Assembly (NCBI RefSeq): GCF_001298265.1
Contig: NZ_LGSZ01000052.1
Span: 1 to 64,000 of the forward strand
DNA: 64,000 nucleotides
Direction of reading: 5' to 3'
Source: Allobosea vaviloviae
Lineage (GTDB): Bacteria > Pseudomonadota > Alphaproteobacteria > Rhizobiales > Beijerinckiaceae
Shown: positions 7,472-11,677 of the stretch, piece by piece
How positions within the stretch are numbered: position 1 is the stretch's first letter
How the letters are laid out: each line of letters begins with the position of its first letter
Position numbers and translations under genes: made by a program
The notes under the pieces: generated by a model
What the model saw: the letters and a program-made list of their open reading frames with translations, nothing else
The model's database searches: none
Told to the model about the DNA's origin: nothing

Positions 7472-8800
7472 TCAGAAACTTTCCTTCAGCCACCGGCCGA
7501 CGCGGGAGAAGTACCCGTCCGTGCCCGTGGCGAAATACGCAGCCCCAGCGCGGGGCTCGAAATGCTCGACATGCGCGACCTGCGGATAGACCAGCAGGCC
7601 GACCGCCGCCGCGAAGGCAGGCCCCTTGCCTGCTTCGGGCAGGCCCTTGATCCCGAGCGGGCGCCCCGTGCGGACCTGGCCGCCGAGGATGCGCCGCGCC
7701 ACCTCGGGCAGGCCGGTGAGCTGGCAGGCACCGCCGGTCAGGACGACGCGCCGCCCGGCCTGAGCCGAATATCCCGCCTGAGTCAGCCGATCGCGCACGA
7801 GTTCGAGGATTTCCTCAACGCGCGGCTTGATGATCCGCACCAGATGCGACTTGGCGAGATGGTTGGGCGTGTCGCGCTCGTCGTCGTCGACCTGCGGCAC
7901 GGAGATCATGTCGCGCTCGTCCGACGCGCTGGCGATACAGGAGCCGTGCAGCGTCTTCAGCCGCTCGGCCGCCGCGACCCGGGTCGAGAGCCCGCGCGCC
8001 ACGTCCATGGTGATGTGGTTGCCGCCGACCGCGATCGCGTCGGCATGCATCAGATGCCCGCCAGAGAACACGCCGAGGCTGGTGGTGCCGCCGCCGAGAT
8101 CCACGACCACGACGCCCATCTCGGCCTCGTCGTCGACGAGCACGGACAGTCCCGAGGCGTAAGGTGTCGCGACCACGGCCTCGACCTCGAGATGGCAGCG
8201 CTCGACCGCCAGCATGACGTTGCGCGCCGCCGAGGCCTCGCTGGCGACGACATGCATGTCGACCGAGAGTTTGCCGCCGATCAGCCCGCGCGGATCGAGC
8301 ACGCCGGGCACGCCGTCGAGCGCATAGCCTGTCGGCAGGGCATGGAGCACGGCCTTGCCGGGCCGGATCGCATGGGTCGCGGCATGGGCCAGCACGCGCT
8401 TGACGTCGCTGTCGCCGACGGAGCCGGCCCGCAGATCGACGCTGGCGGCGTAATGCTGAGAGGCGATGCGCCCGCCCGTCAGGTTGACGATGACCGACTG
8501 CACCTCGACCTTGGCCATCCGTTCGGCAGCGTCCACCGCCGCCCGGATCGCGCGCTCCGCGCTTTCGAGGTCGATGATCGCGCCGCCCTTGAGGCCGAGC
8601 GAACGCTGGTGCCCGATGCCGATGATGCGAGCGACATGGGTACGGCCGCGCAGCCGCTCATTGGCTTCGGCCGGGTTCAGTTCGGCGATCAGGCAGACGA
8701 CTTTGCTCGTGCCGATGTCCAGAATCGACAAGGTCGCGCTCTTGCGCGACGAGAGCGGCCGCATCCGCGGCGTCAGGCCCTGGGAGGTGACGTGGTTCAC
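7472..8800 (-). CDS. ftsA: Cell division protein FtsA
   Basis: Actin-like ATPase that tethers FtsZ to the inner membrane and recruits later division proteins. Actin-fold motifs are present: phosphate 1 ([12 protein letters not shown]), [15 protein letters not shown] in the middle, and [13 protein letters not shown] near the C-terminus. The protein ends in a short amphipathic helix (VGRWLKESF) that would be the membrane-targeting sequence. 442 residues, standard length. GTG start at 8800 overlaps the ftsQ stop by 4 nt and is preceded by a strong GGGAGG. The spacer to ftsZ is 112 nt, where a further ftsZ promoter is common in bacteria but not proven here. Confidence 0.96.
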
Positions 8801-9762
8801 GCCTCGCCTCCCTTCTTCTTGGTCTTGCTCTTGAGCTGGTCGGCGCGGGCAGCGGCGCCCTCTTCCGTCAGTCGCATCACCACCCGGTCGGTCTGGCGCA
8901 GATCGATCGCCAGCAGGTCCTTGTCCATGATGCGGTAATCCGCCTGAAGCGAGGCGAGGCGCTTCACGGCCGCGGCCGGAGCGGTCTCGGGCAGGCGCAC
9001 ATCCATGCCGTTGTCGAGCTTGAGCGTCCAGCGCCGGCCGGAGACCAGCGTCGCCGCGCGAATATGGGACGCCATCGTGCCGGCCTCGGCCCGCAATGCG
9101 ATGTATTCGCCTGCCCGAAGATTGGCGTCGGGGCCGACGACCAGCGGCAGGTGGGCGAAACGTCCGTCATCCATCTTGTCGATCACGGTCCCGTCCGCTG
9201 CGATGACGAAAAGCTCGCCCTTGACCTGCCAGAGCGCGAAGGGCGCACGTTCCACGAGCGTGATCGAAACCTCGCCCGGATAGAGCTTGCGCACGGCCGC
9301 CTCGCGAATCAGCGGAGCGGCCTCAAGGCGCTTGCGAGCCTGGTCGGCATCGAAAAACACCAGCGAGGTCTTCGAATCGATTCCCGCCGCAACCAGAACC
9401 TCGACCTCGGACAGCTCGGCGATGCCCGAAATGGTCACGCGATCGATGCCGAAGCCGACGAGGCGGGCCAGCATGTGATGCGGCTCGCCGTAATTCTCCC
9501 GCAGCGTCTCCAGATGGCCGCCGAGCACCGTGCCGCTGCCGGCGCTGAGCCCGAGAAAGCAGAGCGCCAGCCAGGTGCCGATCCGCCGCGGCAGCCGCTG
9601 CGCGAGCGGCACCGCGACCGCGCTGCGGCGCGAGCGGCGCAGCCAGCGTCCGGTCCGCTCGCCGACGAGCAGTTGCGGCCCGGGAGCCGGGACCGGCAGA
9701 CGAGAGGCAGCCACCGCCGCCACTGTCTTCACCGATCGAGGGAGGCGTCCTCCACCATCCAT
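8797..9762 (-). CDS. ftsQ: Cell division protein FtsQ
   Basis: Bitopic inner-membrane protein that links early and late divisome components through FtsL (and normally FtsB). A basic cytoplasmic region (RRSRRSAVAVPLAQRLPRRIG) precedes one transmembrane segment (about residues 62-82), then a POTRA domain starting VDRVTISGI-type (here IDRVTISGIAELSEVEVL) and the FtsQ beta domain. 321 residues. The ATG at 9762 lies inside the surviving tail of ddlB, as expected from the usual ddlB-ftsQ overlap. Upstream sequence beyond that tail has been replaced, so ftsQ may have lost its normal transcriptional input. Confidence 0.93.
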   Translation of the reverse strand: MDGGGRLPRSVKTVAAVAASRLPVPAPGPQLLVGERTGRWLRRSRRSAVAVPLAQRLPRRIGTWLALCFLGLSAGSGTVLGGHLETLRENYGEPHHMLARLVGFGIDRVTISGIAELSEVEVLVAAGIDSKTSLVFFDADQARKRLEAAPLIREAAVRKLYPGEVSITLVERAPFALWQVKGELFVIAADGTVIDKMDDGRFAHLPLVVGPDANLRAGEYIALRAEAGTMASHIRAATLVSGRRWTLKLDNGMDVRLPETAPAAAVKRLASLQADYRIMDKDLLAIDLRQTDRVVMRLTEEGAAARADQLKSKTKKKGGEA

Positions 9763-9800
9763 GTGACGAGCTCACCGAAGTTCAGGCCCGCGTGGGCAGC
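9729..9800 (-). pseudogene. ddlB: ddlB C-terminal remnant (D-Ala-D-Ala ligase)
   Basis: Read on the minus strand, the last 23 codons before the TGA at 9731-9729 encode a DdlB C-terminus: AAHAG followed by LNFGELVTWMVEDASLDR and stop. This is the expected end of D-alanine-D-alanine ligase and is in the expected place, overlapping the ftsQ start. The frame continues open for about 45 more codons upstream, but that sequence (for example TARFDSRQAAGALERPKLRV) does not resemble the ATP-grasp domain and ends at an in-frame stop near 9933. About 280 residues of the enzyme are therefore missing, and no start or catalytic part remains. Confidence 0.8.
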
Positions 9801-10086
9801 CAATCCGTGCATCACGCGGAGTTTCGGTCGTTCCAGGGCGCCCGCCGCCTGTCGAGAATCGAACCTCGCGGTGTCGTCTCTCTCAGGTCGCATTGCTGAC
9901 GTCCCGGCACCCGATTGCTTGATGCGCCGTTAACGCCACTCTTCGATCTGCTGGTAAATTTTTGGTAAAGTTTGAGCCGGGCAGATGTGGATCGCGCGCG
10001 CTTTCGTGAATTTCGCGGCGTCGCCGCAGGACGCGCTCACGCAGGCGGATTTCGATGACATGGTGAGGTTCAACAGCGCATGCGAC

Positions 10087-10110
10087 CCCAGACCGTCGTG
10101 TCGGTCTGGG
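10087..10110. repeat. 9-bp stem hairpin
   Basis: CCCAGACCG (10087-10095) pairs perfectly with CGGTCTGGG (10102-10110) around a TCGTGT loop. There is no T-run. It could be a processing or attenuation hairpin for transcripts entering ftsQ from this side, or debris of the event that removed ddlB. Confidence 0.45.
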
Positions 10111-10182
10111 CTAACGCACGTGCAAAACGGCCGCGGAAGTCATGGAGCCGACGACGTCGATTGCCGGCGCTTTTGATATGGC

Positions 10183-10190
10183 GTATATAC
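10183..10190 (+). promoter_or_regulatory. Possible brnTA promoter/operator
   Basis: A perfect GTATATAC palindrome lies 7 nt before the brnT ATG in an otherwise GC-rich setting. BrnA-type antitoxins repress their own promoter, so this is the best operator candidate; it may also contain the -10 element, which would make the transcript nearly leaderless. Inference only. Confidence 0.3.
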
Positions 10191-10197
10191 AGGATTA

Positions 10198-10446
10198 ATG
10201 AAAATCGTCTGGGACGAGCGAAAGCGGCAGGCCAATCTGCTGAAGCATGGGCTGGATTTCGCGCTGCTCGATGCGGAGTTCTTCGCGGCGGCCTATATCG
10301 GGGCGGCTAGGCGAGACCGGCTACTGGCCGTCGGCGAAATCAACGGCATCGTTACCGTCATTTTCATCAGACTTGGCACCGAAGGTCTTTCGGTGATCAG
10401 CATGCGACCCGCTTCACGACGGGAAAGGAGGCTGCTCGATGGCTAA
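10198..10446 (+). CDS. brnT: BrnT-family ribonuclease toxin
   Basis: 82-residue toxin of a type II toxin-antitoxin system. BrnT folds like RelE-type ribonucleases and inhibits translation by cutting RNA. Family features are visible: the opening IVWDERKRQANLLKHGLDF, a central strand pair (VTVIFIRLG) and the ending ISMRPASRRERRLL with its conserved Arg and Ser-Arg-Arg-Glu motif. Length is typical (80-95). It overlaps brnA by 8 nt, toxin first, as in the Brucella prototype. It is inserted on the opposite strand within the cell-division cluster where ddlB should be. Confidence 0.9.
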   Translation: MKIVWDERKRQANLLKHGLDFALLDAEFFAAAYIGAARRDRLLAVGEINGIVTVIFIRLGTEGLSVISMRPASRRERRLLDG

Positions 10447-10747
10447 ACTGCTCAAGGAATTCGAGCCAGGCCATGGCTTTTCGCAAGAAGACTGGGACGA
10501 GGTCTCGGACAACCCTGAATTGACCGACGAGCAAATCGCCGGCCTGCGGCCTATGAAGGAGGCGCTTCCGGAACTCTATGCCGCCCTGCAGGCGGACATC
10601 GGAAAACGCGGCCCGGCGAAGACCAAGGAGGCGATCTCGATCCGCCTCGACATCGACCTCGTCGAAAAGCTGCGTGCCTCGGGTCCCGGCTGGCAGTCGC
10701 GCGTCAACGAGGCGCTGCGGGAATGGATCGACAAGCCCGCGGCGTGA
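10439..10747 (+). CDS. brnA: BrnA-family antitoxin
   Basis: 102-residue antitoxin. The C-terminal half is a ribbon-helix-helix DNA-binding domain (ISIRLDIDLVEKLRASGPGW followed by QSRVNEALREWI), matching BrnA, which dimerises, neutralises BrnT and represses its own promoter. The N-terminal half (residues 1-45, acidic) is likely the toxin-binding segment. It overlaps brnT by 8 nt, so the two are translationally coupled. Its stop is 3 nt from the murB stop on the opposite strand; no terminator fits between them, so transcription could read antisense into murB. Confidence 0.9.
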   Translation: MAKLLKEFEPGHGFSQEDWDEVSDNPELTDEQIAGLRPMKEALPELYAALQADIGKRGPAKTKEAISIRLDIDLVEKLRASGPGWQSRVNEALREWIDKPAA

Positions 10748-10750
10748 CGC

Positions 10751-11677
10751 TCAGGCTGCGACGCCGATTCGCTTGATCTCCCAATGCAGGTCGTAGCCGG
10801 AGTTCTCCTTGACCCGCCGGCGGACCTCCTCGCCCAGCCCCTCGACATCGGCTGCCGTGGCGCCGCCGGTGTTGATCAGGAAGTTGCAGTGCATTTCCGA
10901 GACCTGCGCCCCGCCGATGCGCAGGCCCCGGCAGCCCGCCGCATCGATCAGTTGCCAGGCCTTGCCGCCCTCCGGGTTCTTGAAGGTCGAGCCGCCGGTG
11001 CGCTCCTTGATCGGCTGCGCCGCCTCGCGGGCCGCGGTGACGCGGTCCATCTCGGCCTGGATCTGCGCCTTGTCGCCCGGCCGTCCCTGGAACAGCGCCG
11101 AGGTGAAGATGATCCCCTGCGTCGAGGCCCCGCTGCTGCGATAGGCAAAGCCCATATCGGCATGGGAGAGCGTCACGATCTCGCCTGCGCGCGTGACACC
11201 GCGCGCCTCGACCAGAACATCCGTCGTCTCGCCGCCATGGGCACCGGCGTTCATGCGCAGGGCGCCGCCGATGCAGCCGGGAATGCCGCGATAGAAGGCG
11301 AGCCCATCGAGCGAGGCATCGGCTGCGGCGCGCGCGACCTTCACATCAGGGACCGCCGTGCCGGATCGCAGCCGGTCGCCATCCTCGATCGCGATCTCGC
11401 CGAAAGCCTTGCCGCCGAGCCGGATCACGAGGCCGGGAATGCCGCCGTCGCGCACGATCAGATTGGAGCACAACCCGACCACGGTTAGCGGGATCTCCCG
11501 CGGCAAATGGGCCAGCAGATAGGCAAGGTCGGCTTCGTCGGCCGGCGTGAACAGCGCCTGCGCGGGACCGCCGACCCGAAACCAGGTCAGCGGCGCCATC
11601 TCGGCATTGGCGAGCAGGCGGCCGCGCAGCTCGGGCGCGGCGGCGCGGAGGTCTTGGGTGATGTCGGGGAAGGTCAT
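10751..11677 (-). CDS. murB: UDP-N-acetylenolpyruvoylglucosamine reductase MurB
   Basis: FAD enzyme that reduces enolpyruvyl-UDP-GlcNAc to UDP-MurNAc with NADPH in the cytoplasm. FAD-binding motifs include [10 protein letters not shown], the glycine-rich [21 protein letters not shown] region (19-20 residues apart in two blocks) and the catalytic Ser in GGSTFKNP. 308 residues, standard for the shorter alphaproteobacterial form. The usual LGxGSN loop reads [14 protein letters not shown], with Cys in place of Gly. The start at 11677 has only a weak ribosome site. It lies 46 nt after murC; the next gene downstream should be ddlB but is a brnTA pair facing it. Confidence 0.94.

Follow-up and report, generated by a model that had tools for sequence, protein, structure and literature searches.

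Candidate ftsQA control site within ddlB codons and its retention after decay of ddlB in Bosea

In a stretch of 64,000 nucleotides (nt) from Allobosea vaviloviae (GCF_001298265.1, contig NZ_LGSZ01000052.1, positions 1 to 64,000; hereafter the window), the D-alanine-D-alanine ligase gene ddlB, found upstream of the division gene ftsQ, has decayed while a 67-nt block of its DNA (9903..9969, minus strand) has been kept. Weighing the sequence comparisons presented here, we consider it probable, with room for other readings, that this block contains a control site for ftsQ and ftsA (ftsQA) which is embedded in ddlB codons, outlives ddlB and is recognised by a response regulator of the OmpR type, most likely CtrA. 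According to this proposal, ddlB codons ~ 222-229 in Hyphomicrobiales (to which Sinorhizobium and Agrobacterium belong), and up to codon 244 in Bosea, would double as a control site for ftsQ-ftsA(-ftsZ); the tandem half-sites THHACC-N5-TTTACC would be bound by the regulator, and GCGTTAAC would be a second conserved piece further downstream in Bosea. A second ddl would render the DdlB enzyme dispensable and its coding sequence would then decay, selection retaining the block ~ 200 nt before ftsQ for reasons other than the enzyme, and retaining also the last ddlB codons, with the ribosome-binding site of ftsQ and the overlap with its start.

A decayed ddlB and its retained block

The window is part of contig C2 of a 5.6-Mb genome (G000) whose genus-mates are mostly named Bosea, and it was compared within a set of 67 Bosea genomes, its own included. 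In this set ddlB is intact in 58 genomes and lost in 9, eight of the losses being evidenced by a remnant and that of G084 by absence alone, on a contig ending inside ftsQ. In the window no intact ddlB separates murB from ftsQ; in the gap lie brnT and brnA (plus strand) and, adjoining ftsQ, a ddlB pseudogene (9729..10032, minus strand). This remnant, ~ 300 nt long, is the decayed 3' third of ddlB: up to ~ 10032 it aligns to the intact gene of the congener G010 with 82% identity over 338 columns (E 4e-87) and with frameshifting gaps, hence homology at the syntenic place between murB and ftsQ with a destroyed reading frame. At its ftsQ end there is an in-frame tail of 24 codons plus stop (9729..9803), whose residues LAAHAGLNFGELVTWMVEDASLDR are identical to the DdlB C-terminus of G010. 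The tail shows no difference from the sister species G015 over 72 columns, and, ending with the TGA stop at 9729-9731, it reaches 34 nt into ftsQ. Within these codons GGTGAG (9771..9776, minus strand), 8 nt before the ATG, reads as a putative ftsQ ribosome-binding site, and its core GGTGA is retained in all eight remnants.

The initial annotation of this DNA had reported a ddlB reduced to a 23-codon scar, in frame and overlapping the ftsQ start, next to ~ 400 nt of unrecognised DNA. The breakage of ddlB, the frame and the overlap stand. The tail has 24 codons, however, and is not all that is left, given that the DNA up to ~ 10032 is ddlB; only the ~ 165 nt between there and brnT showed no recognised similarity. 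The retained block, which the annotation had missed, lies within the DNA that it called unrecognised. A chance match of the tail, which the same annotation had named as a finding that would speak against it, is ruled out by the identity of all 24 residues with the congener's DdlB and by the longer nucleotide alignment.

Within the remnant the block extends from the direct repeat TTTACCAAAAATTTACC (9953..9969; TTTACC-N5-TTTACC with an 11-nt period, a candidate CtrA-type response-regulator site) through GCGTTAAC (9929..9936) to GTGCCGGG, all on the minus strand. When the region was aligned for the eight remnants and three intact genes, the block was found near-identical in every remnant, with flanks decayed on both sides. 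Indeed, between the window and the intact gene of G015, 1 of 68 block columns differs against 49 of 107 columns from block to tail (Fisher 5e-12). Six other remnants, compared with G015 or G010, display 1-2 changes in 68 columns of block, 38-54 in 106-107 columns of block-to-tail DNA and 5-9 in 72 columns of tail, so that block and block-to-tail DNA differ with Fisher p of 8e-8 to 1e-12 over these seven remnants, in tests that treat columns as independent and among remnants which, where they share an origin, are not separate events. For G077, compared with G089, the counts are 4 of 68 and 26 of 105 (p 0.002). Taken over all eight, the block has changed at 1-4 of 68 columns and the block-to-tail DNA has diverged by 25-50%; in seven of them the flanks of the block have diverged by 20-62% on both sides. 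The block is on the same strand as ftsQ and ~ 200 nt ahead of it, in intact genes and remnants alike. The sequence CGTTAACGGCGCATCAAGCA at its second invariant part is present in 55 of 57 intact Bosea ddlB (the 58th, of G031, was excluded as its ftsQ start lies elsewhere) and in all eight remnants. Two small changes set the remnants apart: immediately ahead of the first TTTACC 8/8 remnants have C, where the intact genes readable by the pattern (50 of 57) have T, and one T before GCGTTAAC is deleted in 5/8 remnants, including a probably independent loss in G077.

The same codons are constrained in genes that are still intact. In 50 intact Bosea ddlB (seven deep-branching genomes being excluded), synonymous diversity at codons 223-244 is 0.057 compared to 0.275 for the whole gene, with a permutation p of 5e-5, which is the floor of 20,000 draws. 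This is the lowest of all 22-codon windows, the next lowest outside block and tail being 0.179, and the G+C content at third codon positions falls there to 0.51 from 0.84 for the gene. A second dip (0.113) corresponds to the ftsQ overlap. A third and short one (0.091 over 8 codons) is observed at codons 257-264, between block and tail, and is not kept in the remnants. The block as an RNA element was also considered and is not indicated: no fold signal (z -0.78) and no Rfam family was found for it.

Concerning the history of the losses, a FastTree phylogeny of six genes of the division and cell wall (dcw) cluster places them in G077, whose sister G089 is intact, and in a clade that also holds the intact G010 and G015. 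The decayed DNA of G077 is 71-75% identical to five intact genes compared to 55-61% for the class-A remnants and 48-49% for G085 and G009; since it is closer to intact genes than to the other remnants, at least two losses in Bosea are likely. In a tree of the remnant region all eight remnants fall on one side (99/95), this tree being unrooted and with long branches, and an approximately unbiased test does not reject a grouping of G077 and G089, its intact sister (p-AU 0.248). Derived bases are common to the remnants of G035, G019, G028 and the window, even though intact G015 and G010 fall among these genomes on the dcw tree, and these remnants are therefore probably of a single origin. An 80-nt stretch of the window beginning 30 nt ahead of the ftsQ start matches G015 at 99%, G010 at 96% and other remnants at 85-91%, compared to the DNA from -110, which matches G015 at 61% and G035, G019 and G028 at 70-76%. 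In the comparison of window positions 9712-9872 with G015, the DNA ~ 70-110 nt upstream is nearer to other remnants, which marks a likely recombination junction. Recombination near the scar in the window's lineage is thus likely, and would explain why its tail is unchanged when six related remnants have 5-9 changed columns.

The repeat beyond Bosea and the genes that follow it

Outside the genus, THHACC-N5-TTTACC is found at the same codons in 32 of 40 ddlB of other Hyphomicrobiales genomes compared to 0 of 20 ddlB sampled in the remaining orders of the class; when only the TTTAC half-site is required, the counts rise to 35 of 40 and 1 of 20. Both sets were taken among the higher-scoring matches (113 and 55, respectively) and are not random samples. 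Where codon 227 encodes isoleucine, ATT is used in 26 of 27 cases, compared to 116 of the 439 isoleucine codons elsewhere in these genes (Fisher 1e-13). Furthermore, across the 40 Hyphomicrobiales genes synonymous diversity dips only at the repeat (0.315, codons 225-232). The repeat thus seems to be built into the codons of the enzyme within Hyphomicrobiales, and this distribution indicates that it predates Bosea.

Seven Hyphomicrobiales genomes besides that of the window had no DdlB match; G180, with no ftsQ match, was left out, which leaves six readable genomes without a normal ddlB at ftsQ. In four of these (G153, G101, G178 and G132) the alignment to the Bosea block beats all 300 shuffles of the region. 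G153 and G116 belong to one genus, G101 and G178 to another. From these alignments the block appears to outlive ddlB in two further lineages that we find convincing. G101 and G178 have a divergent ddl (34% identical to DdlB) before ftsQ, and just after this ddl comes a relic that contains TTTACC-N5-TTTACC; an in-place replacement of ddlB by another ddl is possible there.

The exact pattern TTHACC-N5-TTTACC occurs at four sites in the window's 5.6-Mb genome, compared to one for a reversed-pattern control. These are the ddlB relic and positions before cpdR (NCBIfam equivalog, 198 bits vs 180), before a podJ-like gene, whose product is a 1153-residue Sel1-repeat protein that we take to resemble PodJ, and before a presumably DUF805-like gene adjoining a presumed dapE (no NCBIfam match was obtained for the DUF805-like frame). 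Together they make up a small candidate cell-cycle regulon. In 11 further genomes, chosen by hand, 26 exact hits were found compared to 7 for the control, that is 30 vs 8 over the 12 genomes pooled; as the pattern was derived from ddlB, the fair comparison is that of the 19 other hits with the 8 controls. By neighbour, the 30 hits are distributed as ftsQ/ddlB 11, podJ-like 6, cpdR 4, chemotaxis-like 3 (one by Pfam scan, two by similar start), and one each for a ccrM-like gene (603 bits vs a curated 830), an flhA-like fragment (631 bits vs a curated 772), a GGDEF gene and the DUF805-like gene; two have no gene assigned.

Several of these genes are known from work on CtrA, taken here from parts of the cited papers. 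Sinorhizobium CtrA binds the ccrM, cpdR1 and mcpZ promoters (PMC4433202), the Caulobacter ftsQ and podJ promoters bear CtrA motifs (PMC4287350), and in Hyphomonas ftsAKQZ are regulated by CtrA (PMC7200025). The repeat hence precedes counterparts of several established CtrA targets, namely cpdR, podJ-like, ccrM-like and ftsQ/ddlB, target status being restricted to cpdR1, ccrM and mcpZ (PMC4433202) and to podJ and ftsQ (PMC4287350), and the chemotaxis-like genes being at most putative mcpZ counterparts. Moreover, the window repeat differs from the CtrA motif by one mismatch per half-site and has the same 11-nt period. This likeness and this company lend moderate support to the idea that the repeat acts as a CtrA site would. 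CenR was considered as another binder and set aside, its motif as given in the part of PMC9275681 drawn on, TGA-N8-TGA, being unlike the repeat. In the open-access papers searched nothing was found on Bosea ddlB, on a TTTACC direct repeat in Alphaproteobacteria, or joining ftsQ, ddlB, promoter and CtrA.

Weighing the explanations

Several observations weigh against a CtrA-type control site. In the non-random sample of 40 Hyphomicrobiales ddlB, the repeat is absent from 8 genes and even the TTTAC half-site from 5, and the GCGTTAAC part is unconserved outside Bosea's neighbourhood (synonymous diversity 0.585 across the 40). Among the ddlB losses of other genera, G174 retains nothing of the block detectable by alignment against 300 shuffles, G116 aligns at the CGTTAA part only, with a score between the 95th percentile and the shuffle maximum, the alignment of G132 is doubtful, being AT-rich and in need of a 7-nt gap, and G153 is one mismatch away from the exact pattern, of which its genome has no hit. 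The dip at ddlB codons 257-264 is left unaccounted for by such a site. The published CtrA motif, TTAA-N7-TTAA(C), is not what the window carries, which is TTTA-N7-TTTA with TTTACC as half-site. Without ddlB the excess of repeat hits is modest, but the neighbouring genes are telling. In the part of PMC4433202 drawn on, Sinorhizobium cpdR1 expression is unaltered upon CtrA depletion, and CtrA control of division is placed at minCD, control of ftsQA being cited only for Caulobacter.

The foremost alternative is a cis-acting DNA element other than an ftsQ promoter or CtrA site, such as the site of another regulator, an operator for a distant gene or a chromosome-organisation motif. We regard it as a real, though clearly lesser, possibility: retention and synonymous constraint indicate a function of the DNA and not which function, and a scan of 9600-10760 for -35/-10 sigma-70-like promoters with 16-18 nt spacing found no consensus site (0.1 expected), a result that also tells against the control-site reading; a scan of this kind does not cover activator-dependent alphaproteobacterial promoters. 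Against such an element speak the constant place of the block with regard to ftsQ and its strand, and the recurrence of the exact repeat before cell-cycle and motility genes. What the comparisons show is the decay of ddlB, the selective retention, the synonymous constraint in intact genes, the spread of the repeat through the order and the genes that it accompanies; that the block would drive ftsQA transcription, with CtrA as its binder, is our inference. A more far-reaching version of the control-site reading, to which we give somewhat less than an even chance, would have the site of a response regulator of division genes written into the codons of this essential enzyme early in Hyphomicrobiales, altering amino acids through most of the order, where a [KSL]PNIYQ-like stretch takes the place of the PxxVY-like one of other orders, and outliving the gene in several independent losses; the parallel post-loss changes in Bosea would then reveal a regulatory optimum forbidden by the reading frame.

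Other accounts fare much worse. The initial annotation held that brnTA had taken the slot of ddlB, leaving the scar, with a second ddl taking over. It was right about a toxin-antitoxin pair on the opposite strand: brnT (10198..10446, plus strand; Pfam BrnT_toxin 51.4 bits, cut-off 34.5) and brnA (10439..10747, plus strand, convergent with murB; BrnA_antitoxin 84.4 bits, cut-off 26.1) both exceed their Pfam cut-offs and are adjacent and overlapping, a search of NCBIfam for BrnT and BrnA giving no match to either at E 0.001. The pair does lie between murB and the ddlB remnant, and a full-length second ddl does exist. However, in G020, G033 and G065 ddlB is intact and brnTA stands between it and murB, with 10-11 nt separating the brnTA and murB matches, just as they do in the window; relatives with the same sequence and an adjoining intact ddlB are what the initial annotation had itself said would speak against its reading. 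Thus brnTA neither fills the place of ddlB nor needs it. Nor did G028, G085, G032 and G077 yield any brnT or brnA match next to their remnants, and ~ 300 nt of ddlB persist instead of 23 codons. Replacement of ddlB by brnTA is ruled out by this synteny, and the account as a whole has become very improbable.

Hardly any weight is left for a block kept because a short peptide, or a DdlB fragment with part of its function, is still made. Such an account would want a tail that is still in frame and codes for the same residues as intact DdlB, which is what the window has; yet frameshifts lie between block and tail, and the block itself has a 1-nt deletion in 5/8 remnants; because the frame is broken and synonymous sites are constrained, indeed nearly invariant, in the intact genes, protein is unlikely to be the reason for retention. 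We find it equally hard to credit that the conservation is only apparent, owing to a recent loss or to recombination with intact donors that restored the block. The window looks like a mosaic, with ftsQ-start DNA 99% like the intact sister and upstream DNA nearer to other remnants, which would suit this idea; divergence on both sides of the block in the same seven remnants and the recognisable versions of the block retained by ddlB losses in other families argue against it.

The second ddl, the neighbouring genes and known systems

The initial annotation's surmise that a second ddl had permitted the loss agrees with what is found. The window's genome has one further full Ddl of 373 amino acids on contig C36 (G000:C36), which scores 444 bits (cut-off 262) with NCBIfam NF002528, of the D-Ala-D-Ala ligase subfamily. 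All nine genomes without intact ddlB carry a full-length second ddl at least 88% identical to this copy. Among the 58 with ddlB, 25 also have a second ddl of the same type (at least 73% identity), 22 have a more distant one (43-49%, eight of these matches crossing a stop codon), and in 11, some of them incomplete genomes, none was found; all 11 keep ddlB. None of the 67 genomes is without both genes.

On the minus strand of the window the order of genes is murG, murC, murB, the gap, ftsQ, ftsA and ftsZ. ftsQ (8797..9762; FtsQ_DivIB_C 64.6 bits, POTRA_1 54 bits) and murB (10751..11677; MurB_C 118.3 bits), both on the minus strand, were identified with Pfam, and murG, murC, ftsA and ftsZ were assigned from similarity and position. 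The interval between murB and ddlB varies across Bosea from ~ 70 nt to ~ 2.7 kb, and in three genomes whose interval proteins were scanned it carries MarR and nitroreductase genes (MarR plus nitroreductase together) or dehydrogenase genes. This comparison marks the interval as a variable slot of which brnTA is one occupant. In the sister G015 half a brnA lies beside murB with ddlB intact, and brnTA itself seems to be decaying in that species; in G011 a trace of brnA lies near an intact ddlB. Three terminator-like sites were found in the region over both strands (0.9 expected), of which those at 10205-10217 and 10628-10648 lie between murB and ftsQ on the minus strand, that of ftsQ, and might isolate ftsQ from upstream transcription.

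ddlB and ftsQ are part of one of the most conserved gene clusters of bacteria, and why the genes of this cluster remain together is an old question. A natural removal of ddlB in which a piece of its DNA is kept separates the role of the enzyme from a regulatory role. The block is a concrete candidate for the place at which the cell cycle controls ftsQA in Hyphomicrobiales, an order for whose member Sinorhizobium CtrA control of division has been placed at minCD and not at ftsQA (PMC4433202, in the part drawn on). Deletion or recoding of ddlB in this order may also disturb division by way of the DNA and not of the enzyme.

That the dcw cluster can lose ddlB is in itself not new. In the Fibrobacteres-Chlorobi-Bacteroidetes (FBC) superphylum murB and ddlB were lost from the cluster and ddlB often lies outside it (PMC8871954); a retained control element, as found here, is unmentioned in the part of that paper drawn on. 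As for brnTA, it resembles the type II BrnTA toxin-antitoxin systems, with the toxin gene first, the antitoxin gene second and an 8-nt overlap, and nothing unusual was seen in it; here it is an insertion beside murB. In Escherichia coli the ftsQAZ promoters are located within ddlB, and transcription of division genes from inside ddlB, as proposed here, would be alike, with other regulators and another sequence; we know of no relic of ddlB loss for promoters of that type. There is a close likeness to the ftsQ promoter of Caulobacter crescentus, where a tandem CtrA motif with an 11-nt period (TTAA-N7-TTAA), or a half motif, lies upstream of ftsQ (PMC4287350, in the part drawn on). In contrast to that system, the repeat described here is absent from all 20 sampled ddlB of other alphaproteobacterial orders, and its half-sites are TTTACC-like, lie inside ddlB codons and outlive ddlB.

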